A stretch of DNA of 64,000 nucleotides, taken from assembly GCA_016926255.1 (NCBI GenBank), contig JAFGOY010000049.1:1-64000 (forward strand), in the 5' to 3' direction. Both the position numbers and the translations under genes were made by a program. Source of the stretch: Anaerolineae bacterium (GTDB lineage: Bacteria; Chloroflexota; Anaerolineae; Aggregatilineales; UBA3940). Positions within the stretch are counted from its first letter, which is position 1. Every line of letters begins with the position of its first letter. Shown here piece after piece: positions 4,225 to 20,888 of this stretch. The notes under the pieces are model-generated. The model saw only the letters and a list, made by a program, of their open reading frames with translations, was not told where the DNA came from and made no database searches.

Positions 4225-4244
4225 AGTGGTGTCCTCTCTCGTAC

Positions 4245-6275
4245 CTATTTAGCTTCAGCCGGTTGCGAACCGAGGTAAGTGACACGCTCGGTGTCCTCCA
4301 TCCTGTCATACAGAACACCCTCAATCTGGGCCATAATGGAGTCGAAAGTAAAGTGCTGCCCCTCGATTACCTGGCTTGGGCAGGCAGCGACACAGGTGCC
4401 ACAGCCCTTACATAGAGCCGGGTTCACGCGGCTGACCCCCAGGTCCTCGACAAACTCGATAGCGCTGTAGGGGCAGAGATTGTTACAGATACGGCACCCG
4501 GAACAGCGATCCTCATCAATCGTGGCGCGAATGGGTTCAATTTCGATTTCACCCTGCCCAATTAAGGTCAACACGCGAGCCGCAGCAGCAGCGCCCTGTT
4601 CGACTGACTCAGGGATGTCCTTTGGCCCGGCGCAGGCTCCGGCGATGAAGACACCATCGGTCATCGTCGCAACCGGGTCAAGCTTGGGATGCTTCTCGGT
4701 AAAGAACCCTGCTTCCGAGCAGCCGATACCGAAACGGTGTGACACTTCGACTGCATCATCATAGGGTTCCATCGCGGCCATCAAAACGACCATATCGACC
4801 GGGATGCGGCGCTGTTTACCAATCAGCGTATCTTCGGCCTGAATGATCAGTTTGCCTTCTTCACCCGGCAAGCGGGCGGCATCGGTTACTTCAGCGGCGC
4901 GCCCACGAATCAAGTGGGCACCTTCTTCGAGAATACGATGGTAAAACTCTTCGTAGTTCTTGGAAGGCGTGCGGATATCTATATAGAAGTTATAGATTTC
5001 AGCGCCAGTACGTTCCTTAACCAGGTGAGCAAATTTCAAAGCGGCCATACAGCAGGTATTGGAGCAGTACTGATTGTAGCTCCTGTCACGGCTGCCAACA
5101 CAGTGAATTATCCCCACCGTCTGTGGCTCGGTGACACCATCTCGCAGCAAAACCTTACCGCCGGTTGGCCCAGAAGCATTGACCATTCGCTCGAATTCCA
5201 TGCTGGTGAATACGTTTGCCAGCCGTCCATAGCCATACTGCGGGACTTTGCGAGCATCGAACAGCTTGTAGCCGGTGGCAAGCACGATATTGCCAACATT
5301 CAGAACGACGATTTCGTCTTCCTGGTCAAAGTCGATTGCATCCGTTGGACAGAATTTTTGACAGGCCTTGCAGGTGCCCTTCTCGTAGTAAATGCACGTA
5401 TCGACATCGATGACGGGATACTTCGGCACCGCCTGGGGGAAAGGCCGGTAGATGGCGGTTCGATATCCCAACCCGGCTTCGTATACGTCATCGACCACTT
5501 TGGCCGGGCAGCGTGACCAGCAGTCACCGCACCCGGTGCAGAGATCGGTGATGATCTTTCTGGCCTTCTTGCGGACACGAACCGTGAAGTTCCCGACGTA
5601 GCCATCGACCTGTTCGACCTCGCTGTAGGTCATCAACGTAATGTTGGGGTGGTTGCCCACATCGAACATTTTCGGGGTCAGGATACAGGCCGAGCAGTCA
5701 AGCGTGGGGAAGGTTTTGTCGAGCTGAGCCATGTGACCACCGATGCTCGGTTCCCGCTCGACCATATAAACTGGGTGACCAGCATTGGCGATTTCAAGCG
5801 CCGTATTGATCCCGGCAATTCCGCCACCGACGACCAGCGTAGGCTCATTGATTTCAGCGATAAATGGCTCCAGCGGTTCCAGTTCCATCACACGACGGAT
5901 CGAACCACCCACAATGGCTTTGGCCTTCTCGGTCGCTGCATTGATGTCATCGGTGTGGACCCAACTGGCATGTTCGCGGATATTTGCCATTTCAAATAGA
6001 TAGGGGTTCAATCCTGCCCGCTCACAGGCACGCCGGAAGGTCGGCTCGTGCATGTGGGGAGAACAGGCAGCGACGACAATACGGGTCAGGCCATATTCCT
6101 TGACATCTTCTTCGACCAGCTCCTGGCCGAGGCTGGAGCACATAAATTTATAGTCACGAGAGATGGCGACGTTCGGCATACCTGCGGCCCATTCGGCCAC
6201 GTCTTCCACATCAACGGTACCGGCGATGTTGTGGCCGCAGTGACAGACATATACGCCAACTTTTTCTTCAGTCAT
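4245..6275 (-). CDS. hdrA: HdrA-like flavin/iron-sulfur bifurcating subunit
   Basis: This 676-aa protein is the FAD subunit where electron bifurcation takes place in HdrABC-MvhADG complexes. N-terminal cysteines (CHC at 11-13) are followed by a thioredoxin-reductase-like FAD domain with VVGGGIAG near 150. Two inserted cluster motifs follow (LCTGCGDCWSRC and TCKACQKFC), and two C-terminal ferredoxin motifs (RCSGCRICNNLC and LCKGCGTCVAAC). The length fits canonical HdrA, and no fused MvhD or selenocysteine is seen. It sits between hdrB and mvhD with short gaps. Which low-potential acceptor it uses (ferredoxin is typical) cannot be told from sequence. Confidence 0.95.
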   Translation of the reverse strand: MTEEKVGVYVCHCGHNIAGTVDVEDVAEWAAGMPNVAISRDYKFMCSSLGQELVEEDVKEYGLTRIVVAACSPHMHEPTFRRACERAGLNPYLFEMANIREHASWVHTDDINAATEKAKAIVGGSIRRVMELEPLEPFIAEINEPTLVVGGGIAGINTALEIANAGHPVYMVEREPSIGGHMAQLDKTFPTLDCSACILTPKMFDVGNHPNITLMTYSEVEQVDGYVGNFTVRVRKKARKIITDLCTGCGDCWSRCPAKVVDDVYEAGLGYRTAIYRPFPQAVPKYPVIDVDTCIYYEKGTCKACQKFCPTDAIDFDQEDEIVVLNVGNIVLATGYKLFDARKVPQYGYGRLANVFTSMEFERMVNASGPTGGKVLLRDGVTEPQTVGIIHCVGSRDRSYNQYCSNTCCMAALKFAHLVKERTGAEIYNFYIDIRTPSKNYEEFYHRILEEGAHLIRGRAAEVTDAARLPGEEGKLIIQAEDTLIGKQRRIPVDMVVLMAAMEPYDDAVEVSHRFGIGCSEAGFFTEKHPKLDPVATMTDGVFIAGACAGPKDIPESVEQGAAAAARVLTLIGQGEIEIEPIRATIDEDRCSGCRICNNLCPYSAIEFVEDLGVSRVNPALCKGCGTCVAACPSQVIEGQHFTFDSIMAQIEGVLYDRMEDTERVTYLGSQPAEAK

Positions 6276-6299
6276 TCTCAGCGTCCTTTCTCACCGGTG

Positions 6300-7256
6300 T
6301 TACGGAAGCGATTCCGGCATGGGTAGAGCCTTTTTGTCACGGCGTGCTTTCTTGGCTTTTTCGGGCGCTTCGTCTGCGATCTTCTTCAACGCTGCGTTCG
6401 CAGAAACCACCTCACTGCCAAAGCCGAGTTCTTTTTCGGAAATTCCAAAGGCCAGCCCCATCAACTGGGTGAAATAGAGAATCGGGATGTCGAAATCAGT
6501 CTTGAACATCCGGTTTACCTGGGGCTGGAAAACGTCCAGGTTCATCTGGCACATCGGACAAATGGTCGCGATTGCGTCGGCCTGGTACTCGTCGGCGTTG
6601 TGCAGCAAGCGCCGGATAAGCTCATAGGCAGTCTCATCGCTGATCTGAGTCATGTGGCCGCCGCAGCAGTGGGTCTTCAATGGAAAGTCGACCACCGTCG
6701 CGCCAAGGACACGCAGCAGCTCATCCAGATGGGTGGGATATTCAGGGTTGTATTTCGAGTCGGGGCGAACGATCAGGCAGCCATAGTAGGGAGCGACCCG
6801 CAGTCCCCATAAGGGTTTTTCGGTCTTTTCCGCGATGGTGTCAAAGCCGATGTCCTCGACGATCACGTCGAGCAGGTGACGGATTTGCAGGGAACCTGGC
6901 TCATAACCGAGATTCCCGGCAGCAAGCGCCTGATTGACGTCTTCGTTTAAATCCTTGTACTTGCCCATGTATTTGTCGGTCTTGTGCAAGTTCAGGAAAC
7001 AGGCTGAACAAGGCGCGACGAGATCGGATGCACCCTGCTCGGCTGCTAATGACAGATTTCGAGCAACCAGACTGTAGGCAGGCAGTGAATTGATGCTGAA
7101 GTATTCTGTCGCACCACAGCAGTTCCAGTCCTCGACTTCCTGGAAGGTCATTCCCAGGCTTTCGACGACCTTCATCGTTGATTGTTCATAGGCTTTTGAA
7201 GTCGAGCGAATTGAACAACCAGGATAGTACGCGTAGTGGTCATTTGCAGGGCTCAT
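6300..7256 (-). CDS. hdrB: HdrB-like CCG-domain subunit
   Basis: This 318-aa protein has the two CCG domains (each CX31-39CCX35-36CX2C) that in methanogens hold two noncubane [4Fe-4S] clusters and reduce the CoM-S-S-CoB disulfide. The first domain shows PGCSIR, NCCGA and CSACF. The second shows YGCLIV, HCCGG and CPMC. Bacteria lack that heterodisulfide, so the true substrate is unknown. The start ATG at 7256 has AAGGA 8 nt upstream and lies 3 nt after the hdrC stop. The C terminus ends in a lysine-rich stretch. Confidence 0.93.
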   Translation of the reverse strand: MSPANDHYAYYPGCSIRSTSKAYEQSTMKVVESLGMTFQEVEDWNCCGATEYFSINSLPAYSLVARNLSLAAEQGASDLVAPCSACFLNLHKTDKYMGKYKDLNEDVNQALAAGNLGYEPGSLQIRHLLDVIVEDIGFDTIAEKTEKPLWGLRVAPYYGCLIVRPDSKYNPEYPTHLDELLRVLGATVVDFPLKTHCCGGHMTQISDETAYELIRRLLHNADEYQADAIATICPMCQMNLDVFQPQVNRMFKTDFDIPILYFTQLMGLAFGISEKELGFGSEVVSANAALKKIADEAPEKAKKARRDKKALPMPESLP

Positions 7257-7259
7257 AAT

Positions 7260-7829
7260 TTATTCCTTCTGGCTTGCAATATGCTTCGCTTCGTCCAGGA
7301 TCGCGGTCAACTGCGGCATGTTCTCGATATGCTCAGGAGTCAGGCTGACGCGCCCTTTCTGCATCATACTCAAGCCATATCCACTCGCCTTCAAAGCAGA
7401 AGCGATAGGGTGGCTTGCCAGCATGGTCCGGGTCATTACACCGAGTTCAAAAGAACGCCCATTTTTCTCAACCAGATCAACAAAGTTGCTAGAGAATGTA
7501 ACGTGGGCATCTTTGTGATAGCGCCCCCTGGCAATAGCCATGCGTTTCAAGGTGTACATTAGGTCGGTGACTGGGATTTCTTGCGGACAGCGGACAGTGC
7601 AGTAGTAGCAAGATACACAGTACCATGGGGTGTTGCAGCCCAGCACCTCGTCCTCCATATTCGCGGCGATCATTGCGAATAGTCGGCGGGGTGTCGCATC
7701 CATATCCGGCCCGGAGGGACACGATCCACCACAGGTGCCACACTGCAGACAGAGTGAAAGTGCTTCTCCCCCAGGAGTTGCTTCTATCACGCGTTTGTAG
7801 AAGCTCGATCCCCTTGAGTTGTCTTGCAT
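7260..7829 (-). CDS. hdrC: HdrC-like iron-sulfur subunit
   Basis: This 189-aa protein has two ferredoxin-type cluster motifs, CLQCGTCGGSCP (about 27-38) and CVSCYYCTVRCP (about 71-82). It would carry electrons from HdrA to HdrB. It is the first gene of the hdrCBA-mvhDGA operon. The ATG at 7829 is preferred because AAGGAG lies 9 nt upstream; the alternative GTG at 7853 has no such site. Soluble HdrC of this kind partners HdrB rather than a membrane HdrE. Confidence 0.92.
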   Translation of the reverse strand: MQDNSRGSSFYKRVIEATPGGEALSLCLQCGTCGGSCPSGPDMDATPRRLFAMIAANMEDEVLGCNTPWYCVSCYYCTVRCPQEIPVTDLMYTLKRMAIARGRYHKDAHVTFSSNFVDLVEKNGRSFELGVMTRTMLASHPIASALKASGYGLSMMQKGRVSLTPEHIENMPQLTAILDEAKHIASQKE

Positions 7830-8226
7830 AGCAGCGATCTCCTTTCCTTGCACTTTAAAACATTTTTATCGAGATTGTGTTGAGATCACAGACCTGAAGG
7901 TGTTCATCCCGCTTCTTTGACCAGCCTGATTGTGTATAGAGGCTTAAGCGAAAATCAGGTCCAAAAAACAACCATTTATGTTAACCTACCAGAATCCCGA
8001 AAATCGTTCGGGTCCGCAGTGGGCCATTTGCGCAAAAAGGCAGAACAGGGCTTAAGTGTCAGCAGAACCGACCGCAGGTCAAGCTGAACAATCAATCTTG
8101 CTTTTGCCTACTCAAGGATAATTGCAGCATCGATTCTTAAGTAGTGACGAATGTCATTTGTGAATACAAATGTCATCAGTTCCCGCATTTATTAGTGGCA
8201 TATATGGAATGGGAGGGAGGTATTAC
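7830..8226 (-). promoter_or_regulatory. Upstream region of the hdr-mvh operon, no gene seen
   Basis: This is the longest non-coding stretch in the window, about 400 nt between the end of cofE and the start of hdrC. Both genes are on the minus strand, so it should hold the hdr-mvh promoter. It contains a 6-bp hairpin CCCGAA/TTCGGG at 7996-8012 and a perfect palindrome at 8155-8172. A Crp-like half-site pair TGTGT/TCACA is at 7876-7890 but with 5-nt spacing instead of 6. It is clearly AT-richer than the genes around it. No promoter hexamers stood out well enough to call. Confidence 0.5.
8155..8172. promoter_or_regulatory. Perfect inverted repeat, candidate operator
   Basis: CATTTGT and ACAAATG form an exact 7-bp inverted repeat around a 4-nt GAAT centre. 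The same element is flanked by two ATGTCAT direct repeats (8151-8157 and 8170-8176). The symmetry, spacing and position upstream of hdrC fit a dimeric repressor or activator site. It does not match the FNR (TTGAT-N4-ATCAA) or Crp consensus. Confidence 0.45.
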
Positions 8227-8988
8227 TCAGCAATAGAGGTCTTTATCACGAGGCCGATTCAAATCCGCTGCAGTTGACTGCTTGTCAATCGGATATGATA
8301 TTCCGCGTATGATTACTACCGGCATCCCTTCGGAGGCTTGCCCGGAAACCAGCCCGGCGGCAGCGGCCAGTTCATCGGCAAAACCGACCTCGGTGTGCTG
8401 CAGCCGTCTACCAAACAGGTCGGGCTGGCCGCGCAGGTCCCACAGGGCAGGCAGTCCTGCGGAACCAATCGCCACACCAACCGTTCCCAACCGGAAAGGG
8501 CGGCCATGACTGTCGCTGATCACTACTGCGATACACACACCAAAACGCCCGGCCAATCGATCCCGAATCCTGGAAGCGGATGTGTCGGGATTTTCGGGAA
8601 GCAGCAGAAGCCATTCGCCCTCGCCGCGCGTATTCGAATGGTCGACTCCGGCATTGGCACAGACAAAACCCAGCCGGTGTTTGACGATCAGTACATCATG
8701 GCCTGTTCTGGAAATGCCGCTCGACTCACTCAGGATGACCGAAACCAGGCGAGGGTCTTTATTACACTGCCCGGCGACCATGAGCGCCCGCTCATCGGGG
8801 ACTACTGAAGAGAGATCGATCCAGCGACCTTCCGCTTTAGAGACAATCTTCGAGGTAACGACGAGGACATCGTTCTCTTGCAGAATAAGGGCACTGCGTT
8901 CCAGAGCATCTCCGATGACCTGCGGGAGATCGTCTCCACTGGTAATCAGCGGGATGCCCGGCACACTGATCAGTTCGATATGAGACAT
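8227..8988 (-). CDS. cofE: F420-0:gamma-glutamyl ligase (CofE-like)
   Basis: This 253-aa protein belongs to the CofE/FbiB-N family that adds gamma-linked glutamates to coenzyme F420-0 using GTP. The family motif [16 protein letters not shown] is clear, along with [13 protein letters not shown] near the N terminus. It is a single-domain form like archaeal CofE, without the nitroreductase-like C-terminal half of actinobacterial FbiB. The start at 8988 is 4 nt after the stop of the F420 reductase gene, so the two are probably co-translated; no clear ribosome binding site is present. No other F420 biosynthesis genes are in the window. Confidence 0.88.
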
Positions 8989-8992
8989 GGTA

Positions 8993-9661
8993 TCAGTCGA
9001 TCCCGGTGATCCGTATTCCGGCACCTTTGACTTTGTAGCGTTTGTTGATCCCGACCAGGAGTGGGGTCAGGCTTTCGGCGACAATCGCATTGACCAGCGG
9101 TCCGGCGTCGATCCCCCGCATATCGGCAGCTTCGGCCAGCCGGATCGCGACCAGCTTTGCCTCTTCATCGTCACCGCAAATCAGCACGTCACAGTCGACC
9201 CTGTGATCGAGGTCTTTCAGGTGGCCCGCCGAAACATTCTGGAAGGCTGAAATGACCTTCACACCGTCGCCAAGAAGCGCCTGGGCTTCCTCGGCGGCGG
9301 TTCGACCCTCCGGCAGGTTGACAGTCGATACCTGGGGCGGTTTGAGTGGAACCGTCACATCGACCAGGGTCTTGCCCTGAACTGCCTCCCTGACGCTCTC
9401 CAGCGTCGCCCGGTGGGCGCTGTAGGGAACGGTCAGGACGACGAGATCGGCTTCGCGGGCGGCACCTTCGTTTGCCATCCCCCGGATGAGATTCTCGCCA
9501 AGTAGATCGTTCAATTCACCGGCCACGCGCAGGGCTTTATCCGGCGTGCGCGAGCCGATGATGATTTGATACCCACTGCGTGCCCATCGAAGGGACAGGC
9601 CGCTGCCTTCTTTCCCGGTGCCACCCAGCACCGCGACGATAGGAAGTTGTTCAGATGACAC
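8993..9661 (-). CDS. npdG: NADPH:coenzyme F420 oxidoreductase (Fno/NpdG-like)
   Basis: This 222-aa Rossmann protein fits the family that transfers hydride between NADPH and F420. The N-terminal GGTGKEGSGLSLRWA loop (about 13-27) is typical for this family. The following GSRTP is the expected NADP(H) phosphate-binding site. The start is GTG, supported by AAGGAG about 9 nt upstream. It is followed after 4 nt by cofE and preceded by ssnA with a 19-nt gap. The enzyme would link the NADPH pool to F420. Confidence 0.9.
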   Translation of the reverse strand: MSSEQLPIVAVLGGTGKEGSGLSLRWARSGYQIIIGSRTPDKALRVAGELNDLLGENLIRGMANEGAAREADLVVLTVPYSAHRATLESVREAVQGKTLVDVTVPLKPPQVSTVNLPEGRTAAEEAQALLGDGVKVISAFQNVSAGHLKDLDHRVDCDVLICGDDEEAKLVAIRLAEAADMRGIDAGPLVNAIVAESLTPLLVGINKRYKVKGAGIRITGID

Positions 9662-9680: not shown

Positions 9681-11039
9681 TTACAGGGTTTTAGTTGCGA
9701 TTTCGTTGTAGCGATCCCATACCGCCGGAACCAGCTCCCGCGAGCGGGCGGTGATCGCGGCTTCGTCGAGCGTCAGGAGCCTTCGATCCTGCATCAGCAC
9801 CTTCCCGGCGCAGATCGTCGTAGTGACCATCGAGGCTTCGAAGCCAAAAATGATATGCCAGGGCAGGTTACCCGCCGTCAGCGGGGTGGTGGGGTGGTAA
9901 TCGACCAGGATGATGTCGGCGGCGGCTCCTTCGATCAGCAGGCCGGGAGGGGCCTGGGGGAAGTAGATACTGGCTAATGCCGCGTTATTTTGAATCGCCA
10001 TCTCGACGATGGTCATACCGTTAGCGCGGCGCGGGTCGCGATGCCATACCTTGTGAAGCAGGTAAGCGGTTTTCCATTCGGCCCACATATTGTTGCTGAA
10101 GCCATCGTTGCCCAGGCAAACGGAAATGCCAAGTCGAAGCATTCCCTCGATATCGGCAGCGCCGACCGCGTTGTTCATGTTCGAGCGAGGTTGATGGGTG
10201 ACCCACGTCCGTGTATCGCGGAGAATCTCCGCCTCCCGCTGATCGATATGAACGCAGTGGGCGACAATCGACTTCTCGCCCAGGATACCCGCATCATGCA
10301 GTCGGTCGACAACCCGCTTCCCCGACTTATTGAGACTGTCGTACTCGTCAACGGAGTGCTCGGCAACGTGGATATGAAATCCGGTGCAGCCGTCTGCAGC
10401 CTCGGCGCAAGCGGCGAGCGTCTCCTCGGAAACGGTGAGCGAGGCATGCAGCCCGAACGCGGCGGCAAGGTTAGGCCGGTCTTGAGCTGTTTTGATGAAA
10501 CGAACATTCTCGTCAATGCTGGCCTTTGCGCTTTCCGGCCCGTAGCGATCCGTCACTTCGTAGCACAGAGCAGCCCGCAATCCGGCCTCGTCGACCGCGT
10601 CGGCGATCACGTCCAGCGAACCCGCCAGGGCGTTGGGGCTGGCGTGGTGATCGAAGAGCGTCGTCGTGCCATGCTTGATCGCATCGATCAGGCAAACCAG
10701 CGTGCTGTAACGCACTGCTTCTTCATCAAGGGCCTGATCGAGAGGCCACCACAGGCGTTCGAGAATTTCGGGAAAATCTTTGGGAGCCGGGCCGGGGATC
10801 GCCATGCCGCGCGCAAATGCACCGTAGAAATGGGTATGGGCACAGATATTGCCCGGCATGATCAACTGGCCCTGTGCATCGATGCGTTTGGCCTGTGGGT
10901 AGCGGGATTCCAACGCCACCGCTTTTCCGACTTCAACGATTTTGCCTGATTCGGTAAAGACGGCACCCTCTTCGATGAGTTCAGCATCGTCTTCCCAGGT
11001 TACGACCGTACCATTCGTGATCAACAACGGATTGTTCAT
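9681..11039 (-). CDS. ssnA: SsnA-type amidohydrolase/deaminase
   Basis: This 452-aa metal-dependent amidohydrolase is close to E. coli SsnA. Shared features include CAHTHFYGAFARG (metal-binding His68 and His70), the LWWPLDQALDEE stretch, FDHHASP, and HQPRSNMNN. Further metal and catalytic residues are His222/His224 region, Glu227, His261 and Asp312. SsnA lies in the E. coli purine/urate catabolic region, but its exact reaction is not firmly known; ring opening or deamination of a heterocycle is likely. It is next to the 223-aa unknown protein and the PLP enzyme on the same strand. Confidence 0.88.
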   Translation of the reverse strand: MNNPLLITNGTVVTWEDDAELIEEGAVFTESGKIVEVGKAVALESRYPQAKRIDAQGQLIMPGNICAHTHFYGAFARGMAIPGPAPKDFPEILERLWWPLDQALDEEAVRYSTLVCLIDAIKHGTTTLFDHHASPNALAGSLDVIADAVDEAGLRAALCYEVTDRYGPESAKASIDENVRFIKTAQDRPNLAAAFGLHASLTVSEETLAACAEAADGCTGFHIHVAEHSVDEYDSLNKSGKRVVDRLHDAGILGEKSIVAHCVHIDQREAEILRDTRTWVTHQPRSNMNNAVGAADIEGMLRLGISVCLGNDGFSNNMWAEWKTAYLLHKVWHRDPRRANGMTIVEMAIQNNAALASIYFPQAPPGLLIEGAAADIILVDYHPTTPLTAGNLPWHIIFGFEASMVTTTICAGKVLMQDRRLLTLDEAAITARSRELVPAVWDRYNEIATKTL

Positions 11040-11058: not shown

Positions 11059-11730
11059 TCACAGTGCGGCATCGATCATCAATGGCCCGCCTCGCCGCTC
11101 GATGGCAGTATGAACCGTCTCAATATCGACAAGTTCATTCCCACCCAGAACAAGCGAGGTCGATGGACGTTCGGCACGGGAGGAAATGACAACCGGGCCC
11201 TCCTTGCAGGGAACAAGCAGATCAACCGTATAGCGCGAGTTCCCTTCCCGGTACTCGACCTCGCGCTCCGGCTGGATGCCGCGCATCTTCAAGGCATGGT
11301 AGACCCGATTGACAAACTGGTCGCTGCTGCTGAACAGGTCGTTGATTTCCCGCGCCGACACAAAGCGATCCCAAGTCGTTTGGATGAAGGTGATCCGCCG
11401 CCAGCGCAGGCTCACAATGGGTGGTATTTTCTCCCTCAGCGGGCCTAACTGGAGTTTATAGTATTGCTCCTGCGCACGCGGGTGATCGGGTTCGCCGGGC
11501 AGAAGATCGATGCGGCGCACCAGTTCGTGACCGGTGCGCCGTGCATAGTTATGAATGGCCCAACGAAGGTCTTCGCCAAACTTCCTGGTGAAGTAGAAAG
11601 CCACATACTCAGCATGTATCCCATTCGGCGCGTGTTTCTGGGGCACACGATACCAGTGCAGGTCCCGTGCACGTTCCAGGTCTTTCGGATCGGGCATCAC
11701 GCCCACCAGGACGCGGTCTTCAGGATACAT
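11059..11730 (-). CDS. Hypothetical protein in purine-catabolism island
   Basis: This 223-aa protein is not recognised. It is soluble, without signal peptide or membrane segments, and is rich in charged and aromatic residues. The N terminus reads DRVLVGVMPDPKDLERARD followed by HWYRVP. A central YYKLQLGPL segment and a basic SLRWRRITFI strand follow. The C-terminal half (VDLLVPCKEGPVVISSR) could be a small nuclease-like or regulatory fold, but nothing catalytic is certain. ATG at 11730 is preferred to the preceding TTG. It sits 15 nt after the PLP enzyme and 19 nt before ssnA, so it is probably part of the same transcript. Confidence 0.75.
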   Translation of the reverse strand: MYPEDRVLVGVMPDPKDLERARDLHWYRVPQKHAPNGIHAEYVAFYFTRKFGEDLRWAIHNYARRTGHELVRRIDLLPGEPDHPRAQEQYYKLQLGPLREKIPPIVSLRWRRITFIQTTWDRFVSAREINDLFSSSDQFVNRVYHALKMRGIQPEREVEYREGNSRYTVDLLVPCKEGPVVISSRAERPSTSLVLGGNELVDIETVHTAIERRGGPLMIDAAL

Positions 11731-11745
11731 CAAACATTCTATCGA

Positions 11746-13155
11746 CTATTCACCATGAATATGGTTTTCTTTACGATAAGCGATGATCTTCTCATCGATT
11801 TCCTGCACCATGTGCTGGTGCTGCTGCCACCAGGCGGGATCGCGCTGAGCATCCAGTTCTTCGACGGTCTTGCCCTGCTGCTCGACCCAGGTATAGTACT
11901 TCAGGTTGTGCCAGCGCTCACGTGATTCGCGGTTGCCTTCCGATATGTAATCGATCTTCTGCCCGTGGAAGGTCTGGCCCAGCCGGTAAGCGGCGAGAGT
12001 CTCATCCATCTTGCCCTCTTCGCCTTCCAGCCAGTCCATCACCGAGTGGTAGCGGTCGATGGCGTCGGTGCAGATGGTAATGATTACATCGTCTTCGCCC
12101 ATATCGTAATACTTGGCGGTCTTGATCGCCCCCAGCACGTTGCAAACACTGGAAATGCCGAAGAACTGGCTCATCGCCTCGACATCGGCTTCGGGGACGC
12201 CGAAACGCTTGACGAGCGTCTCTTTGCCGGCAGGGTCGGTCAACAGCGCCAGGCCGCGCACGGTTTCCATATCGTCAATAGCCATGATTGCGTCCATGTT
12301 GAAGACATTGTGTATCCAGGTGACGTGCTTGTCGCCGATCCCCTCGATGCGATGTCCGCCGTAGCCATTATCATAGAGCGTCCGGCACTGGATTGGCTCC
12401 AGGCCGACGATCTTGTGATCGGGCCATTCCTGCTTCATGCGGTCACCGGCGGCAATCGTACCGGCAGAACCCATCGCCGAAGTGTATGCGGCGATCTTCC
12501 CGTTACCGATCCCCTTCTTTTGCAGTTCGGCGGCCAGTTCGACCATCGTGTTGCCGGTAACGAAATAGTGGAAGCGGTAGTTGCCCATCACTTCGAACTG
12601 GTTGAGCACCCGCACGTTCGGGTCTTCGCGCAGTTCCCAGGTCTTGTCGTAGATTTCCTTGACGTTGCTCTCGCAGCCGGGCGTGGCGATTACATGCGCT
12701 CCCAGGCGCTCGATATATTCGAAGCGCTCGCGGCTCATCTCGGCGGGGAGAACGACGATGCTGTCGAAATTCATTCGGCAGCCGACAAACGCACCACCGA
12801 TCCCATAGTTGCCGGTCGAGGGCCAGACGAGTTTGTGTATGGCAGGGTCAACTTCTCCAAAGAGTTCTTTCTCGATCAAAACCGAATAGGTTGCGCCGAC
12901 CTTGTGGCTGCGCGTAGGGAAGTGAATACTGTGCAGCACGACGACATTGGCATCGATGCCGGTCAGTTCTTTGGGAAGAACATGATAGTGAATCTTGTTG
13001 CTGGCATCTTTCCAAGTGATATTAAACAGGTTGATCGGATCCAGGGGGTCTTCCCCCATCATCCGAAGCGCTTTAGCCCGAATATCCGGGGCAATTTTCT
13101 CCGGGTGCAGCATCTCGTCAAAAGTTGGGCCGGTTATAATTCTTTGTTCTGACAT
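11746..13155 (-). CDS. PLP-dependent fold-type II lyase/synthase-like protein
   Basis: This 469-aa protein has the features of the tryptophan-synthase-beta/cysteine-synthase superfamily. The likely Schiff-base lysine is Lys85 in SHKVGATY, an asparagine loop STGNYG is at 113-118, and a glycine/serine phosphate-binding loop SAMGSAGT is at 226-233. The C terminus is longer than in cysteine synthases and ends with a helical region rich in tryptophan and glutamine. I cannot name its substrate. In E. coli the matching neighbourhood holds ygeX, a diaminopropionate ammonia-lyase of the same fold, so an ammonia-lyase in ureide breakdown is an attractive guess. GAGGAG lies about 13 nt upstream of the start. 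Confidence 0.82.
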   Translation of the reverse strand: MSEQRIITGPTFDEMLHPEKIAPDIRAKALRMMGEDPLDPINLFNITWKDASNKIHYHVLPKELTGIDANVVVLHSIHFPTRSHKVGATYSVLIEKELFGEVDPAIHKLVWPSTGNYGIGGAFVGCRMNFDSIVVLPAEMSRERFEYIERLGAHVIATPGCESNVKEIYDKTWELREDPNVRVLNQFEVMGNYRFHYFVTGNTMVELAAELQKKGIGNGKIAAYTSAMGSAGTIAAGDRMKQEWPDHKIVGLEPIQCRTLYDNGYGGHRIEGIGDKHVTWIHNVFNMDAIMAIDDMETVRGLALLTDPAGKETLVKRFGVPEADVEAMSQFFGISSVCNVLGAIKTAKYYDMGEDDVIITICTDAIDRYHSVMDWLEGEEGKMDETLAAYRLGQTFHGQKIDYISEGNRESRERWHNLKYYTWVEQQGKTVEELDAQRDPAWWQQHQHMVQEIDEKIIAYRKENHIHGE

Positions 13156-13536: not shown

Positions 13537-14514
13537 TCACCTTGATCTCCGCTGTTCACCTTCCGGCGAAGCATCGATACCATATGTTTCGCGAACGATA
13601 TACAGCGGACGGCCTCTTACTTCGTTGTAAATGCGCCCCAGATATTCACCAATGATACCCAGGGAAAGCAGTTGAACGCTCCCCAGGAAGAGCACCATGA
13701 TCAGCGTGGTTGCCTGACCTTCGAGCGGTTTGGCGCTGGTGAATGCCCGCAGATAGATCACAAGAAGGATCGCAATACCACTTAAAGCCGCGATAGCAAA
13801 TCCCAGGTAGGTAGCAAGCTGAAGCGGGAAGTAGGAGAAACCGGTAATTCCATCCCAGGCAAATCGCAGCATCCTGTTCAGGGGATACTTCGTCACACCG
13901 GAATAGCGTTCGTGGCGCGTATACTCGATGCCCGTCTGACGATACCCAACCCAACTGACCATCCCCCGGATGAACCGGTGCCGCTCCCGCATCGAGAGGA
14001 CAGCATTGACTACTTTGCGATCCATCAGGCGAAAGTCGCCGGTATCGAGCGGAATGCTGATATCGGTGATCGAAAACATCAGCCGGTAGAACAACGACGC
14101 CGTAGTCCGCTTAAACCAGGATTCTCCCTCACGCTTTGCCCGTACGGCATAGATGACCTCGTAGCCTTCCCGCCACTTCACAATCATATCGAGGATGATT
14201 TCCGGCGGGTCTTGCAGGTCGGCATCGATCAGGATCACCGCCTGCCCCTGAGCATAATCCATCCCGGCGGTTACTGCTATCTGGTGGCCGAAGTTCCGGG
14301 CAAACGAGATAACACGAATATGCCCGGGGTCTGAATCGTACAGTTCGCGCACAGCGCTGCCGGAGCCATCGGTGCTGCCATCATCGACAAAGACCAGTTC
14401 CCAGGTTTCACCCGAACGGTCAAGGACATCGCTTATACGTCTATGCAGTTCTTGTAAGTTGCCCACTTCGTTATAAACGGGGGCGACAATCGAAATGACA
14501 GGGCCGTCGTCCAT
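13537..14514 (-). CDS. GT2 family glycosyltransferase, GtrB/dolichol-phosphate-sugar synthase type
   Basis: This 325-aa protein has an N-terminal GT-A domain with [16 protein letters not shown] and the metal-binding DADLQDPP motif. Two C-terminal hydrophobic helices (about 235-260 and 265-295) follow. This layout is typical of polyprenyl-phosphate glucosyl/mannosyl transferases such as GtrB and DPM1-like enzymes. It would load a sugar on undecaprenyl phosphate at the inner membrane. GT39-type membrane transferases elsewhere in the window (29642-31462, 58686-60779) could use such donors. Its place between a purine enzyme and thrC looks incidental. Confidence 0.9.
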
Positions 14515-14573: not shown

Positions 14574-15830
14574 TCAAATAATCTCACTTATAATGCGATC
14601 AACTTCATCCAGCGTTGGCGCGATTTTCGGAGCCTGCCGCACCGACTTTTGCGCCGAAGCAATATCCTTCAGCCCATTTCCGGTGCTCAGGACAACGATC
14701 CGCTCATCGGCGGAGAACATCCCCAGCCCGGAGGCTTTCAGCAGCCCGGCATAGGCCGCCGACGCTGCCGGTTCGGCAAAGACGCCGGACATCTGCGCCA
14801 GCTTCGGAATGGCGGCGATGATCTCATCATCGCTGACGGTAATATATGCGCCGCCGGTTTCGGTGACGGCCCGCATCGCCTTGACGCGGTCACGGGGAAG
14901 CCCGGCGGAGATGCTGTCGGCGACCGTCTGCGCGTCGATAGGCTCCATCTTCGCAGGATTGATCCCTTCCTTCCAGGCTTTATACATCGCCGCTGAGCCT
15001 TCGGCCTGTACACCGATCAGGCGGGGCATTTTGTCGATCCAACCCAGAGCCAGCAGATCGCGCAGGCCCTTGTGAACACCGCTGATGATGTTGCCATCGC
15101 CGACGCTGACCAGGATCGTATCGGGGGCGGAAAACTGGCCGGGCCGGTCGGCAAGCTGCTCGCAAATCTCATAGGAGACGGTCTTCTTGCCTTCGGCGGT
15201 ATAGGGATTGTAGCCCGTGTTGCGGCAGTACCAACCATATTTATGCGTGGCTTTCAGGCACAGTTCAAAGGCATCGTCATAGGTACCATCGACCAGCAGC
15301 ACGTTCGCGCCATAAACCAACAACTGCGTGATCTTGGCCGGGGGAGCACTGGCAGGCACGAAGATGACGGTTGGCATCTGGACGCTGGCTGCTACCCCGG
15401 CCAGCGCAGCAGCGGCGTTACCCGTGCTGGCCGTCGTGACCAGATCGCGGCCCTCGACACCGGCCCTGGCGACGATCAGCGCACTGGCCCGGTCCTTCAG
15501 CGAAGCGGTTGGATTGCGGCCATCGTCTTTAATCCAGACCTGCCCCGCGCCGATCTGTTGGGCGACGTTGTCGACCCGGTACAGCGGCGTCGCGCCGACG
15601 ACCAGCGGCGGAACCGGCGCATCGATATCGATGGGCATCAGCGCCTTATAGCGCCAGATGCCGGTGACATCCGCCAGCCCGGTCTTACTCACCCGGTCGG
15701 CGATGCGGTCGTAGTCATACAGCACATCGAGGTTGCCATCGTCGCCGTGATCGGGGCAGATGTACTCGACCTCGCCCGGCGCATATTCTTTTCCACAGAT
15801 CGTACATTTCAGTCCAACAACGTGATCCAT
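14574..15830 (-). CDS. thrC: Threonine synthase
   Basis: This 418-aa fold-type II PLP enzyme converts O-phosphohomoserine to threonine. It starts with a small zinc-ribbon-like segment (Cys9, Cys12, Cys25, His28), common in this subgroup. The PLP lysine is Lys112 in NPTASLKDRAS, followed by TASTGNAAAAL and a serine/glycine loop VSVGDGN. The C-terminal part carries VLSTGNGLKD. Homoserine dehydrogenase is encoded separately at 40999-42030 and no thrB is seen. Some threonine-synthase-like proteins act on other phosphorylated amino acids, but the match is good. Confidence 0.9.
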   Translation of the reverse strand: MDHVVGLKCTICGKEYAPGEVEYICPDHGDDGNLDVLYDYDRIADRVSKTGLADVTGIWRYKALMPIDIDAPVPPLVVGATPLYRVDNVAQQIGAGQVWIKDDGRNPTASLKDRASALIVARAGVEGRDLVTTASTGNAAAALAGVAASVQMPTVIFVPASAPPAKITQLLVYGANVLLVDGTYDDAFELCLKATHKYGWYCRNTGYNPYTAEGKKTVSYEICEQLADRPGQFSAPDTILVSVGDGNIISGVHKGLRDLLALGWIDKMPRLIGVQAEGSAAMYKAWKEGINPAKMEPIDAQTVADSISAGLPRDRVKAMRAVTETGGAYITVSDDEIIAAIPKLAQMSGVFAEPAASAAYAGLLKASGLGMFSADERIVVLSTGNGLKDIASAQKSVRQAPKIAPTLDEVDRIISEII

Positions 15831-15875: not shown

Positions 15876-16847
15876 TCAAGCCCCGCGCTCACCGCGAACA
15901 TAGGGTATCCCCAGGGCTGCCGGAGCACCCAATCGTTTTCGCATCGCCTCGCGGGAGCCAATCACCAGGACGATGATCGTAAAGGCATAGGGCAGCATTT
16001 GCAGGAAAAAGCCGAGATAGGGATCGTAAAAGAACGGGTTGCGCAGCACACCGAACAGGACCATCGGCCCCTGAATATCGAGGATCAGGCGGCGCAGTGC
16101 GCCAAAGAGAAACGATCCCAGCGCAGCGCGAATGGGGTTCCACTGGGCAAAGATCACCAACCCGATCGCGATCCAGCCTAACCCGGCGGTCGTCTTATCG
16201 CTGAACCAGCCGGGGGAGATCGCCAGACTGAGTGCTGCCCCGGCAAGGCCGCACAGCATCCCACCGATAAAGACATACAGATAACGCTGCCTGAACACGT
16301 TGATCCCCAGCGCATCGGCGGCAGCCGGGTATTCGCCCACCGCCCGGAGATGAAGCCCTGGACGGGTGCGGTTGATATAGTACCAGATCATCGGAACGAG
16401 CAAATAGCTCAAATAGGTTAGGATAGATTGATTGGCAAACATGATCGGCCCGATTACCGGAATGGCCGAAAGAAGAGGAATATCGAAAGCAGGCAGCAGA
16501 GCCACACCCCCGGCGTCGCTCAATCCCTCGCCCAATACCAGGCTAACGCCAGTTCCCAGGAAAGTGAGTGATAACCCACTGACAACCTGATCGGCGCGAA
16601 ACTGGATGACGACAATCCCGTGAAGGATGGCGAGGACCCCCCCAGCGAACATCGCCACGAGAAGCCCCAGCCATGCGTTGCCGGTCGAGTTAGCAATGCC
16701 GAAAGCCGCCATTGCACCCAGCAGCATCATCCCCTCGACCCCGAGATTCATGACCCCCGAACGTTCCGTGATCAGTTCGCCCAGCGTGGCGAAAAGAATC
16801 ACCGTCCCGGTTGCGACACCTGCATGCAGAATGATAATCAGGTCCAT
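15876..16847 (-). CDS. ABC transporter permease, nucleoside/sugar type (NupQ/BmpG-like)
   Basis: This 323-aa inner-membrane permease of the BPD_transp_2 (LivH-like) superfamily has about nine hydrophobic helices. The N terminus contains the ATLGELITERSGVMNLGVEG signature of BMP-linked nucleoside importers, and SLTFLGTG is also typical. The GGGG-containing start region lies 1 nt after the stop of the partner permease, with GGGGAG 9 nt upstream. The usual partners (ATPase and lipoprotein) are encoded just upstream. Substrate is probably a purine nucleoside or base, inferred from the neighbourhood. Confidence 0.9.
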   Translation of the reverse strand: MDLIIILHAGVATGTVILFATLGELITERSGVMNLGVEGMMLLGAMAAFGIANSTGNAWLGLLVAMFAGGVLAILHGIVVIQFRADQVVSGLSLTFLGTGVSLVLGEGLSDAGGVALLPAFDIPLLSAIPVIGPIMFANQSILTYLSYLLVPMIWYYINRTRPGLHLRAVGEYPAAADALGINVFRQRYLYVFIGGMLCGLAGAALSLAISPGWFSDKTTAGLGWIAIGLVIFAQWNPIRAALGSFLFGALRRLILDIQGPMVLFGVLRNPFFYDPYLGFFLQMLPYAFTIIVLVIGSREAMRKRLGAPAALGIPYVRGERGA

Positions 16848-16848
16848 G

Positions 16849-17973
16849 TTAGACGTCTCCCCGACGGCGAATTCGAATCCGGTAGCGAACCAGCACTTCG
16901 CTGCTGATAATACAAAACAAAATAATGCCCTGAAGCATGAGTGGAATGCCCGATGGCTGAATTTCTCGACCGGCGAGGATCAAACCGCCGAAAAGGATCG
17001 AGACCAGTATGACGGCAAACGGGTTGAGCTTGGCTAGCCAGGCGATAATGATCCCGGTGAAGCCATAACCTGACGAGATTTTCTCCTGAAAGCGGTGGAC
17101 AACCCCGGTGATCTCGATCATCCCGGCTAACCCGGCTAACCCGCCGGACAGCATCATGACCAGAACCGTGTTGCGCACAATATTGATCCCGGCATACTGG
17201 GCAGCCTTCGGATTATCGCCGATCAACCTGATTTCATATCCCCACCGGCTGCGATAGAGAATGAACCAGATGACGAAGACCATCAACAGGCTCAAAAGAA
17301 TACCCAGGTGCAGGGTATAACCGGAAAAGAGGGGAATCTGCTGCGCATAGTCGGCCAGGCGCGGAAGCCAGGCGCTCTTCGGGAAGGTCGGCGACATCTG
17401 GAAGCCGCTCTCGTTCCAGTGGGCGAAAATCCAGTAGTTGTTCCAGGAGATGGCGATATAGTTCATCATCAAGCTGGTGATGATCTCGTTCACGTTGAGC
17501 TTGGCCTTCAGGTATCCGGGGACAAAACCCCACAGCGCCCCGGCGATGAACCCGGCCAGCATCATGGTGGGCAGCATAATCCATATGGAGGTGTCCGGCG
17601 GTAAAATGGGAGCAAGCACGACCGCGCTGGCCCCAAACGCTCCGGCGTAGAACTGGCCCTCTGCACCGATATTCCATAGGCGCATCCGAAAAGCGATAGC
17701 GCAGGCCAGCCCGATCATGATCAATGGCGAGGCTTTGACCAGGGTATCGTTGAAAACGCCGAGGTTGCCGAAAGCCGCCCGTACAACATGGGCGTATGAT
17801 CGGAACGGGTTGCCGCCCGAAGCCCAGAGGATGACGCCACCGATGATCAGCGCGACGACGACAGCGCCCAAAGACGATGCGATTGGAAGCCAGCGCGGAA
17901 TGAACATCCGCTGTTCCAGCCGTATTCTGAATGGAATTCGTAGAGATCGCTGTTTAGAGGATATTCTTTCCAT
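16849..17973 (-). CDS. ABC transporter permease, nucleoside/sugar type (NupP/BmpF-like)
   Basis: This 374-aa permease is the heterodimer partner of the previous gene. A basic N-terminal stretch (about 1-25) precedes the first membrane helix. The family signature SPLIMIGLACAIAFRMRLWN and the following NIGAEGQ are clear. Eight to nine hydrophobic segments follow. The start codon overlaps the stop of the ATPase gene by one base (TAATG), so translation is coupled. Met23 is an alternative start, but the overlap favours the first ATG. Confidence 0.9.
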   Translation of the reverse strand: MERISSKQRSLRIPFRIRLEQRMFIPRWLPIASSLGAVVVALIIGGVILWASGGNPFRSYAHVVRAAFGNLGVFNDTLVKASPLIMIGLACAIAFRMRLWNIGAEGQFYAGAFGASAVVLAPILPPDTSIWIMLPTMMLAGFIAGALWGFVPGYLKAKLNVNEIITSLMMNYIAISWNNYWIFAHWNESGFQMSPTFPKSAWLPRLADYAQQIPLFSGYTLHLGILLSLLMVFVIWFILYRSRWGYEIRLIGDNPKAAQYAGINIVRNTVLVMMLSGGLAGLAGMIEITGVVHRFQEKISSGYGFTGIIIAWLAKLNPFAVILVSILFGGLILAGREIQPSGIPLMLQGIILFCIISSEVLVRYRIRIRRRGDV

Positions 17974-19511
17974 TATCGTTTGGCCTCTGTACTGATTTCT
18001 TCCTGCCGGGTGCCGGTCATCATCTGCCCGATGGTATCAATGTCGCCGTTTTGGACTTCTCCCATAACTTTCCCTTCATAGAGAACATAGATACGGTCGC
18101 TCAGGACAACAAGTTCTTCAAGTTCTTCTGAGATCAGCAGGATGGCTGCGCCTGCCTCCCGCTGATCCAGTAAAAGCTGTTGAACACCTTCGATTGCGCC
18201 AACATCCAGCCCTCGTGTGGGCTGAACGGCGATCATCAACTCCGGCTCGGCAGAGATTTCCCGCGCAAGGATCACGCGCTGCAAGTTTCCACCGGAAAGC
18301 AGCCTGACCGGGGTCTTGATCGTCGGGACGATAATGTCGTATTCGTCCTTGAGCGATTCGGCCTGTTCCTGCGCAACCGATTGGTTGATCGACATGCCAT
18401 GGCTGATTGGCGATCTGCGATAGCTTTTCATGATCAGGTTGTCGGTGACACTCAGGTTAGGTGCTGAGCCGACGTGAGTTCGATCTTCAGGGATGTGGGC
18501 CGCCCCGGCATCGATGGAAACGCGGGCCGAGCGATTCTGTACTTCGTTCTCCCCGATCAGCACCCGGCCTGCGGTACATTCACGCAGACCGGTGATTACC
18601 TCAGCGAGTTCGCTTTGCCCATTTCCGGCAATGGCCGCCACCCCGACGATCTCCCCAGCGCAGACATGCATCGATACGCCGCGCAGTGCCGGTAATCTAC
18701 GGTTGTTCAAGGCGTGGATATCTTCGATAGAGAGCACCCGTTTTCCCGGCTCCTGCTCCTTCTTTTCCAGTTCGAACAGAACCTTGCGTCCGACCATCAG
18801 ATGAGCGAGTTCGGCACGGTTCGTCTCACTGGCCTTGATGCCCACCGCTGTGACTTTACCACGCCGCAAAACGGTTATCCGGTCAGCAATTTCAAGCACC
18901 TCGTTGAGTTTGTGGCTGATAAAGACAATCGACTTCCCTTCAGCCGCCATCACGCGGAGGGTTTTGAAGAGACCCTCGATCTCCTGCGGCGCGAGCACGG
19001 CGGTCGGTTCGTCCATGATCAGCACCGAAACGCCGCGATAGAGCATCTTCAGGATTTCAACGCGCTGTTGTTCGCCAACCGACAACTGCCATATCTTGGC
19101 CTGGGGATCGACCTTCAAGTTGAACTGGTCTTCCAGTGCTTTGATCTTCTGTTCATATTTGGGCAGCTGAAGCCAAAAACGAGGTTCATCCAGACCGATT
19201 AAGATGTTCTCGGTCACACTTTGCGACGGTACCAGCATGAAATGCTGGTGAACCATCCCGATTCCGGCGTTGATCGCATCTTTAGGTGAATTGAAATACA
19301 CGCGCTGCCCATTGACACTGATTCCACCCTCATCCGGGCGATACAGACCCGTCAATATATTCATCAGCGTGCTTTTACCTGCGCCGTTTTCACCCAGCAG
19401 CGCGTGGATTTCACCCGTTCGCAGATTGAAATCGATATTGTCGTTTGCCAGGACGCCGGGGAAACGCCGGACGATGCCTTTCATTTCCACTGCATATTGT
19501 GATTCCGGCAT
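17973..19511 (-). CDS. ABC transporter ATPase with two nucleotide-binding domains (NupO-like)
   Basis: This 512-aa duplicated ATPase powers the nucleoside importer. The first domain has Walker A GENGAGKST, signature LSVGEQQR and Walker B LIMDEPTA. The second has a degenerate Walker A AIAGNGQSEL, signature LSGGNLQR and a Walker B-like region LMIAVQPTRGLD, where the catalytic glutamate is replaced. This asymmetry is normal for RbsA/YufO-type proteins. I use the ATG at 19511 because AAGGA is 8 nt upstream; the ATG at 19520 directly abuts the site. Confidence 0.92.
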   Translation of the reverse strand: MPESQYAVEMKGIVRRFPGVLANDNIDFNLRTGEIHALLGENGAGKSTLMNILTGLYRPDEGGISVNGQRVYFNSPKDAINAGIGMVHQHFMLVPSQSVTENILIGLDEPRFWLQLPKYEQKIKALEDQFNLKVDPQAKIWQLSVGEQQRVEILKMLYRGVSVLIMDEPTAVLAPQEIEGLFKTLRVMAAEGKSIVFISHKLNEVLEIADRITVLRRGKVTAVGIKASETNRAELAHLMVGRKVLFELEKKEQEPGKRVLSIEDIHALNNRRLPALRGVSMHVCAGEIVGVAAIAGNGQSELAEVITGLRECTAGRVLIGENEVQNRSARVSIDAGAAHIPEDRTHVGSAPNLSVTDNLIMKSYRRSPISHGMSINQSVAQEQAESLKDEYDIIVPTIKTPVRLLSGGNLQRVILAREISAEPELMIAVQPTRGLDVGAIEGVQQLLLDQREAGAAILLISEELEELVVLSDRIYVLYEGKVMGEVQNGDIDTIGQMMTGTRQEEISTEAKR

Positions 19512-19550
19512 AAAACTCATTCCTTCGGGTATTGAATGGCGGTGTATACT

Positions 19551-19586
19551 GGCGAAGCCGGGAGTGTTGATCAGCCCGGCTTCGCC
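19551..19586. other. Stable hairpin between lipoprotein and ATPase genes
   Basis: A perfect 12-bp inverted repeat (GGCGAAGCCGGG with CCCGGCTTCGCC) has a 12-nt loop. On the transcribed minus strand it is not followed by a T run, so it is not a clear terminator. It lies between the substrate-binding lipoprotein gene and the ATPase gene, a place where many importer operons keep an mRNA-stabilising or attenuating hairpin. That would allow excess binding protein over transporter. Confidence 0.6.
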
Positions 19587-19673
19587 GAATTATTAGCTGC
19601 AAAGAGGCTGCCAGCAAAAAGTTCGTTGACAAACCTCAATATACGAGAAGTGACAGGCTACGGCTAGCTCATA

Positions 19674-20888
19674 TTACTCCAGTTCGGGCAGTTCGGCGGT
19701 GACGCCTTCGGCCCACCAGTACATGCAGTACTCGCATTCAAGCCCTTCCGCGCCTGGCGGGAACTGATCGAGGTCGGCCTGGACAAAGCTCTTGCCTGCC
19801 GCGATGATCTCGTTGCCCTGGTTATCCGTGATGGGGCCGCTGAACACGTCGAAGCGGTCGAAGTCGCCAGCGAGCATCGCGGCGAGAGTATCCTTCACAA
19901 GCTGGACATCTTCGGCGGGAAGATCGGCAACGCCGGGCATCGGTTCTTCGCCTTCCATGAAGCCATAAAGCCCCAGACCACCGGTTTCGGCGTCGAAGTA
20001 TTCCCAGCCGCCGACATACTCACCGGCCATAGAACGCTCAGTAATGTCTGCGTAGATCGGCCCCCAGTTCCAGTAGGGAGCAGTCAGGCAGGCATCGCTC
20101 TTGCAGGAGCCGTAGTAGTCATAGGTGATACCCCATTTGCCCTTCTCCTCGGCCACATCGGCACTGGCAGGAGTATCTGCACCGGTAAAGACCACCTGCA
20201 CACCAGCGTCAAACAGTGATGCAGCAGCTTCCTTCTCGATTACCGGGTCATGCCAGGTATTGATCCAGCGAACGTCCATCGTGCATTCGGGGCAGGTAAC
20301 CTTCATACCGAGAGCAAACGCGTTACCCAGGCGGAGTTCTTCCGGAATAGGGAAGGTTGCCATATAGCCGATCCTCGGGTTGCCATCAAGCTTGGCGCGC
20401 GAACCGGCCAGCATACCGGCCAGGTATTTCATGTCTTCCATTGCGCCCATCACGTTGCCAAAGTTTGTACCGTTCGCCTTGTAACCCGAAACGTGAACAA
20501 AGTCGATATCGGGGAACTCACCGGCAACTGTCTCGGTGGGATCCATATAACCAAACGACGTTGTGAAGATCAGGTCAAAGCCCTTGCGAGCAAGCGAACG
20601 AATGACCTGCTCACTGTCGGCACCTTCGGCGACTATTTCGACATAAGCAGTATGGACACCATCGACGTTGTCCTGGACATACTGACGGCCAACGTCGTGG
20701 GACTGTGACCAGCCACCATCATCATGTGGGCCAATATAGACAAACGCGACATTGAACATACCTTCTTCGATGTCAGGTATCTGGTAAGCTGCCTCTTCTT
20801 CAGCAGGTGCAGCCTGGCCGCAACTGACCAGCACGGGAACAATCAAAACCAAAGCAATGATCCAAAATAGATGCTTACGGTTAACCAT
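19674..20888 (-). CDS. BMP family substrate-binding lipoprotein (nucleoside-type)
   Basis: This 404-aa binding protein of the basic membrane protein/PnrA family captures the substrate outside the membrane. The signal peptide ends in a lipobox LVSC (Cys23), followed by an acidic linker. The mature part starts NVAFVYIGPHDDGGWSQSHD, typical of this family, and contains GYMDPTE and TGADTPAS. The ATG at 20888 is preferred because GAGGAG is 10 nt away; the ATG at 20897 is only 1 nt from it. It is the first gene of the importer unit. Purine nucleosides are the known ligands of PnrA-type members, but the ligand here is inferred. Confidence 0.92.
   Translation of the reverse strand: MVNRKHLFWIIALVLIVPVLVSCGQAAPAEEEAAYQIPDIEEGMFNVAFVYIGPHDDGGWSQSHDVGRQYVQDNVDGVHTAYVEIVAEGADSEQVIRSLARKGFDLIFTTSFGYMDPTETVAGEFPDIDFVHVSGYKANGTNFGNVMGAMEDMKYLAGMLAGSRAKLDGNPRIGYMATFPIPEELRLGNAFALGMKVTCPECTMDVRWINTWHDPVIEKEAAASLFDAGVQVVFTGADTPASADVAEEKGKWGITYDYYGSCKSDACLTAPYWNWGPIYADITERSMAGEYVGGWEYFDAETGGLGLYGFMEGEEPMPGVADLPAEDVQLVKDTLAAMLAGDFDRFDVFSGPITDNQGNEIIAAGKSFVQADLDQFPPGAEGLECEYCMYWWAEGVTAELPELE

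Follow-up and report, generated by a model that had tools for sequence, protein, structure and literature searches.

An uncharacterised fold-type II PLP enzyme encoded beside SsnA among purine and uric-acid genes, with a possible role at the YgeX step

The protein encoded at 11746-13155 represents an uncharacterised subfamily in the cysteine-synthase/cystathionine-beta-synthase (CBS) branch of fold-type II PLP enzymes, and its placement among purine and uric-acid genes across phyla is not a matter of chance. The gene lies in the window, the whole stretch of 64,000 nucleotides analysed here, which comprises positions 1 to 64,000 of contig JAFGOY010000049.1 from assembly GCA_016926255.1 of an Anaerolineae bacterium. 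Regarding its function, we give an even chance to the reading that the enzyme is a beta-lyase acting on 2,3-diaminopropionate (DAP) or on the ureido-amino acid that precedes it, paired with a threonine-synthase-like (ThrS-like) enzyme, the pair standing in for YgeX. The purine-cluster genes of the window, from 8-oxoguanine deaminase through CofE, share the same strand and are as follows, with NCBIfam scores given against the cut-off.

8227-9024, minus strand: F420 gamma-glutamyl ligase CofE (TIGR01916, 280 against 180.65)
8993-9661, minus strand: NADPH-dependent F420 reductase NpdG (TIGR01915, 220.4 against 149.8)
9681-11039, minus strand: SsnA (NF005540, 532.6 against 444; TIGR03314, 504.5 against 455.5)
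11059-11733, minus strand: protein of 224 aa between the PLP enzyme gene and ssnA, its model weakly like ASCH/YTH (PUA-like)
11746-13155, minus strand: the PLP enzyme, fold-type II, OASS/CBS branch; 469 aa, ATG start, about 95 residues longer at the C-terminus than cysteine synthase
13537-14514, minus strand: glycosyltransferase family 2, between both PLP genes and in the same place in other Chloroflexota loci
14574-15830, minus strand: second PLP enzyme, ThrS-like, phosphate-loop motif GDG
15876-20897, minus strand: ABC transporter with two permeases, ATPase and lipoprotein, by eye of nucleoside/purine type; 19674-20897 matched no NCBIfam family at E<=1e-20
20994-21959, minus strand: carbamate kinase, relative of E. 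coli YqeA (NF009007, 370.7 against 266)
22003-22986, minus strand: carbamoyltransferase, YgeW-like, 36% to E. coli YgeW (TIGR03316, 204 against 500, below the cut-off)
23007-23960, minus strand: second carbamoyltransferase, aspartate-carbamoyltransferase-like (TIGR00670, 243 against 236.95)
24017-25810, minus strand: adenine deaminase (TIGR01178, 623 against 472.5)
25746-27143, minus strand: hydantoinase, HyuA-like, 38% to E. coli HyuA (TIGR02033, 436 against 393)
27140-28495, minus strand: 8-oxoguanine deaminase (NF006055, 706 against 532)

Reading 11746-13155 on the plus strand does not give the PLP enzyme protein. The frame on the minus strand is not a chance ORF, since strong matches were obtained in 50 of 60 related genomes besides the window genome, at 42-82% identity, and at least 588 candidates were confirmed in genome_contigs. 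Lys85, STGNYG (113-118) and SAMGSAGT (226-233), the fold-type II residues reported in an earlier note on this DNA, which gave no strand, are all located where that note had placed them. PALP was the sole family in the Pfam scan (72 bits), and the protein stays under every NCBIfam cut-off. The top model is cysKM (TIGR01136) with 107.1 against 344.15 bits, and the other relevant scores are 105 bits for cysteine synthase (TIGR01139, cut-off 350.95), 22 for cysteate synthase (NF053679, cut-off 600), 18.6 for DAP ammonia-lyase (NF006058, cut-off 276) and 18.5 for threonine synthase (NF004996, cut-off 266); TIGR00260, also a threonine synthase model, is absent from the 12 NCBIfam families that match at E<=0.001. 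By these models the protein is, as the note had said, not a recognised cysteine synthase, threonine synthase or DAP lyase, the cut-offs for all three, and for cysteate synthase, being missed by a wide margin.

When the PDB sequences were searched with the enzyme, cysteine synthases came out on top (7n2t at 1.4e-25), and a profile of 75 of its sequences reached 2.1e-34 at best. Lys85, STGN and Ser335 are kept in all 75 rows of alignment A2, which excludes L076, L091, L101 and L117, where a stop interrupts the match, and the partial loci L093 and L095. The loop that reads GIGAGF in cysteine synthase is GIGDKH in the enzyme, and KVG is found where cysteine synthase has KDR. Loci L067-L146 were retrieved with this motif as part of the pattern, which biases its invariance among them; in a recheck of 65 sequences, all of Chloroflexota, from a whole-genome search run without the motif pattern (and without L012, for which no ORF was obtained), Asp275 and Lys276 were present in 65 of 65 and His277 in 63. 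The PALP tree, from which L077, L123 and L136 are omitted, as they are from the motif block, is weak at depth, where long branches meet.

The predicted structure of the enzyme has a mean pLDDT of 94.0. In the structure-based search that the earlier note had proposed, the nearest folds listed are relatives of cysteine synthase, beta-cyanoalanine synthase and CBS, with identities of 20-29%. The best match listed is beta-cyanoalanine synthase 3vc3_D (Z 37.1 over 311 residues), and the closest ones also include O-ureidoserine synthase (Z 34.7), CBS and O-acetylserine sulfhydrylases; the matches listed consist of cysteine-synthase and CBS relatives, and the absence of YgeX among them carries no weight. 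The fold, the PLP lysine, the asparagine loop, the glycine-rich phosphate loop and Ser335 in the GIS motif are held in common with cysteine synthase and CBS, while the low identity in the listed structural rows, KVG, GIGDKH and a helix-rich C-terminal extension set the enzyme apart from them. O-ureido-L-serine synthase (3x43 and 3x44, Z 33.4 and 34.7) shares the fold at 22% identity and, by its entry titles, acts on ureido-bearing serine; it is a biosynthetic beta-replacement enzyme. Residues 12-393 of the model are spanned by at least one fifth of the listed solved structures, and none listed passes residue 401. The long C-terminal region remarked upon earlier is real: a conserved HNLKYYTWVEQQGK block is located at about 416-429, beyond the structurally matched part. 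In the predicted model this C-terminal part is rich in helices and is without a partner among the listed structures, from which a new fold does not follow.

As a set, the genes of the window resemble the cluster of the reductive uric-acid pathway, which a 2025 paper described from E. coli and C. difficile (PMC12507026, in its available text). As in that cluster, SsnA, HyuA, carbamoyltransferase and carbamate kinase are found together; unlike it, as far as the available text describes it, the window has two carbamoyltransferases and two different PLP enzymes. A tblastn search of the 64-kb window with E. coli proteins gave relatives of YgeW, HyuA, YqeA, SsnA and GuaD and no match to YgeY, YgfK, YgfM or XdhD, the lack of XdhD, YgfK and YgeY being a further difference from the published cluster. 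The sole YgeX match was weak and fell on the ThrS-like gene at 14574-15830. In the same text, Chloroflexota are described as being without YgfK/UacX and as having a putative F420 enzyme. Loci of the L069 type have an F420 arrangement with SsnA, NpdG and CofE, and by eye also CofD, CofC and a luciferase-family enzyme; no match to the luciferase-family protein of L069 was found in the 64-kb window.

The surroundings of the enzyme were examined in 80 genome_contigs loci (L067-L146), drawn with the DKH motif in the retrieval pattern, the titles of which include Chloroflexota, Bacillota, Thermotogae, Ignavibacteria, Bacteroidota, Acidobacteriota and Elusimicrobia. In 45 of the 80, one or more genes of the uric-acid cluster lie near the enzyme. 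The neighbours are SsnA in 28 loci, YgeY in 20, YgeW/OTC in 24 and a ThrS-like protein in 32. Each label was taken from the best BLAST hit among window and E. coli references, so that a weak one (XdhD at 25%, for example) names the superfamily only. In the other 35 loci no cluster gene is nearby, some of the contigs being short, and six of these have a ThrS-like gene. Fifty of the 52 genomes that are without a local SsnA were surveyed for SsnA elsewhere (L134 and L136 being left out): an SsnA-like match at E<=1e-70 was present in 41, in 30 of them over a cut-off that E. coli alone passed among 14 control genomes. The same linkage with other gene orders is seen under titles of Ignavibacteria, Bacteroidetes/Bacteroidales, Acidobacteria/Holophagaceae, Clostridium, Tissierellia and Mycoplasmatota.

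At the level of genomes, the association with SsnA can also be observed. Among 301 Chloroflexota genomes, in which 47 were counted as carriers of the PLP enzyme (<1e-90; 214 genomes match it at E<=1e-10), both proteins occur in 36, the PLP enzyme only in 11, SsnA only in 15 and neither in 239; SsnA is thus present in 36 of the 47 carriers against 15 of the 254 others (Fisher 5.7e-25, the kinship of the genomes being ignored). In the window genome and its 60 close relatives, both occur in 46, SsnA only in three, the PLP enzyme only in five and neither in seven, with SsnA taken at E<=1e-90 (Fisher 1.7e-4, kinship again ignored). The two genes are less than 2 kb apart in 31 of the 46 genomes, and in most of the others they lie on separate contigs. 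The surroundings were inspected for seven of the 11 Chloroflexota genomes that have the PLP enzyme only: five have YgeW-like genes of 29-36% (L189, L190, L191, L193, L194), one has an SsnA-like ORF (39%) that fell outside the SsnA count, together with YgfK and XdhD matches (L188), and one has YgeY-like ORFs and a ThrS-like enzyme (L192). The ssnA neighbourhood pointed out in the earlier note is thus borne out, SsnA of the window being over both its cut-offs and linked to the enzyme across genomes.

That note had further placed the enzyme in the position of ygeX. YgeX is likewise a fold-type II protein (PALP) found beside SsnA, YgeW and YgeY; the PLP enzyme differs from it in its low score with NF006058, and the two coexist. 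In three clusters (L087, L097 and L140) a YgeX homologue with 47-49% identity to E. coli YgeX stands beside the PLP enzyme, on the opposite strand in L087 and L097. YgeY, YgeW, HyuA and SsnA are also present in L087 and L140, and L097 has YgeX and YgeY, so that the known steps of the pathway look covered in these three clusters despite the presence of the PLP enzyme. Clostridium algoriphilum is among the bacteria that have both the PLP enzyme and YgeX. Of 61 close genomes, 10 have a TIGR03528 (YgeX) match at E<=1e-20, which exceeds the cut-off in one. Six of these matches fall in the 46 genomes carrying both the PLP enzyme and SsnA, and all six stay below the cut-off; at this threshold the window genome has no match. 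Outside Chloroflexota, 43 of 50 carriers have no YgeX match at E<=1e-60, and two of the seven remaining exceed the cut-off. The placement in the position of ygeX is only partly right, because a second PLP enzyme is present in the window and YgeX stands alongside in three clusters: this version of the cluster is mostly without YgeX, and a simple replacement of YgeX by the one enzyme is weakened. Membership of the Chloroflexota YgeX in the cluster was rejected, its stretches in six of ten genomes (L182-L187, 6-19 kb) having no other cluster-reference matches. With E. coli YgeY as query, relatives at E<=1e-40 were detected in 57 of the 301 Chloroflexota genomes, including the window genome, where the relative is on contig C17 (34%, 4.8e-71); a direct elimination of urea from albizziin as a consequence of the local lack of YgeY is weakened by these relatives.

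The second PLP enzyme of the window was counted along with the first. Among 26 genomes (its own and 25 relatives), both are present in 22 and neither in three; the ThrS-like enzyme occurs alone in one, which is 65% complete (G004), and the PLP enzyme alone in none. Across the 301 Chloroflexota genomes, both occur in 37, the PLP enzyme only in 10, the ThrS-like enzyme only in five and neither in 249, where the ThrS-like enzyme was counted at E<1e-100 (42 genomes), ten genomes at 6e-76 to 7e-90 being left out of the 52 at E<=1e-75. All aligned cluster-linked copies (30 rows including that of the window, of 33) have GDG in the phosphate loop, a position at which six ThrC-like paralogues have other letters; the window genome has two more ThrC-like matches elsewhere, of 31% and 33%. 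A second PALP is found in 30 of the 45 cluster loci within the stretch examined. The partner in the slot beside the PLP enzyme varies, being ThrS-like, YgeX or a third type (L209, L189-L191), and because this slot holds different PLP families, the partner may be the DAP lyase and the PLP enzyme something else. The third type (3545-4954 in L209) is a divergent PLP enzyme whose N-terminus bears Cys, located beside the PLP enzyme and a YgeW-like gene; it occurs in a single Chloroflexota family as well as in G287.

Together, the two PLP enzymes seem to account for the YgeX step or to extend it. The distinct lyase suggested in the earlier note is largely right: the model scores describe a distinct and unnamed fold-type II enzyme, and its lyase chemistry is inferred. 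In the reading given an even chance above, the enzyme would act late in reductive purine/uric-acid breakdown, after SsnA, HyuA and the carbamoyltransferases, on a C3 amino acid that would be either DAP or the ureido-amino acid one step earlier. Alpha-amino acids, namely albizziin and DAP, are among the late intermediates in the available text of PMC12507026 and PMC12990295. Because the carboxylate loop and the PLP contacts resemble those of cysteine synthase, an alpha-amino acid is the likely substrate. By analogy with that enzyme, PLP would be bound by Lys85, which would also abstract the alpha proton; the carboxylate would be held by STGN (113-116) together with Gln186, and the phosphate by GSAGT. 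The beta nitrogen would subsequently leave, yielding aminoacrylate and finally pyruvate and ammonia. Asp275, Lys276 and His277, which take the place of AGF in a loop that lines the active site in cysteine-synthase and CBS structures, may protonate the leaving nitrogen, and a charged DKH loop there would be suited to protonating an amine or urea as it leaves. The GDG protein at 14574-15830 would share the work, and the pair would replace the dual-specificity YgeX of E. coli, which acts equally on both DAP isomers (available text of PMC12507026). More tentatively, and at a level that we consider doubtful, the pair may, in many bacterial lineages with this cluster, consist of two specialists, the PLP enzyme for one DAP enantiomer (or albizziin) and the ThrS-like enzyme for the other, and two carbamoyltransferases with carbamate kinase could then use both ureido groups of uric acid to make ATP.

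A different division of labour, unlikely in our estimate although of some weight, would make the ThrS-like protein the real DAP ammonia-lyase and leave to the PLP enzyme either the elimination of urea from albizziin (2-amino-3-ureidopropionate) or the racemisation of D- to L-DAP. The DAP-lyase model gives 63 bits for the ThrS-like protein against 18.6 for the PLP enzyme, and across the 80 loci the slot for a second PLP enzyme is held by a ThrS-like protein or YgeX and not by both, L084 alone excepted, whose YgeX-like ORF is only 27% identical. YgeW, the maker of albizziin in one published version of the pathway (available text of PMC12990295), directly adjoins the PLP enzyme in nine of the 80, and the cluster of G144 (L201) has YgeY and the ThrS-like protein in a genome where the PLP enzyme is matched only weakly (9.4e-11). 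Direct cleavage of albizziin would, however, often be unneeded, since YgeY relatives (E<=1e-40) are present in 34 of the 47 Chloroflexota carriers, the window genome included. A short relative of the PLP enzyme, moreover, occurs by itself in L197, L198, L199 and L205, with no ThrS-like gene within 12-19 kb and no ThrS-like match at E<=1e-75 in these genomes.

This short relative, a cysteine-synthase-like PALP, was observed in six of the stretches inspected from 10 of the 15 SsnA-only Chloroflexota genomes (the four just named, L195 and L196), and those examined from G282, G144, G088 and G326 have none. It is 345-356 aa in length in the four copies with a clear start, and adjoins YgeW in four loci and the ThrS-like gene in two. 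Asp275, Cys257, Glu162 and Ser163 are in common with the PLP enzyme, and the motifs KDR and TGNTG are ordinary. The short PALP may be misannotated, because two copies are at or just over the cysteine-synthase cut-offs, their cysKM scores being 351 and 360 where 344 is required.

The same two scores, from copies in the same slot, would fit a cysteine-synthase-like beta-replacement on the aminoacrylate from DAP or albizziin, making cysteine for example, as would the nearness of the PLP enzyme to cysteine synthase, beta-cyanoalanine synthase and CBS in both sequence and fold. The nearest characterised relatives mostly form C-S or C-N bonds by beta-replacement. We regard this explanation as improbable: the conserved DKH replaces the AGF of the loop, KVG replaces KDR, the cysKM score of the PLP enzyme is 107 against 344, and catabolic genes are frequent neighbours. 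That an unrelated amino-acid enzyme lies in the operon by an accident of Chloroflexota gene order is very improbable, for although 35 of the 80 loci have no cluster gene nearby and a glycosyltransferase separates the two PLP genes, the association recurs in other phyla with different gene orders and the co-occurrence with SsnA holds at the genome level.

The pathway itself was published recently, and within it the PLP enzyme is a variant form of a known enzyme type. In the available text of PMC12507026, the spread of the pathway was mapped by family labels, with PF00291 standing for YgeX; the PF00291-type proteins near SsnA in the Chloroflexota and several other loci examined here belong to two families other than YgeX. 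A literature search that included PMC12507026, PMC12990295, PMC4016543 and PMC2276186, within the text available from these, found no paper naming a second PLP family in these clusters. Naming the PLP enzyme would close the uric-acid pathway in many anaerobes and correct likely labels such as "cysteine synthase" and "threonine synthase". In which order and with what stereochemistry the ureido groups are cleaved, questions raised in the available text of PMC12990295, are matters on which the enzyme bears as well.

Three further features of the cluster were observed. The two carbamoyltransferases lie side by side (22003-23960) together with carbamate kinase, and the same pair is found in L090, L105, L139 and L193; L069, L070, L076 and L078 have YgeY and no second carbamoyltransferase in the stretch examined. 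Both ureido groups are possibly phosphorolysed where the pair occurs. The model of the protein at 11059-11733 has a pLDDT of 87.6 and a weak match to an ASCH structure (5y6c, E 6.8e-4), with YTH domains lower; judged by this model, the protein could be PUA-like and possibly nucleobase-binding, and thus a purine-responsive regulator. Just past the F420 genes, at 649-7853, lie HdrCBA-like genes and apparent hydrogenase subunits.
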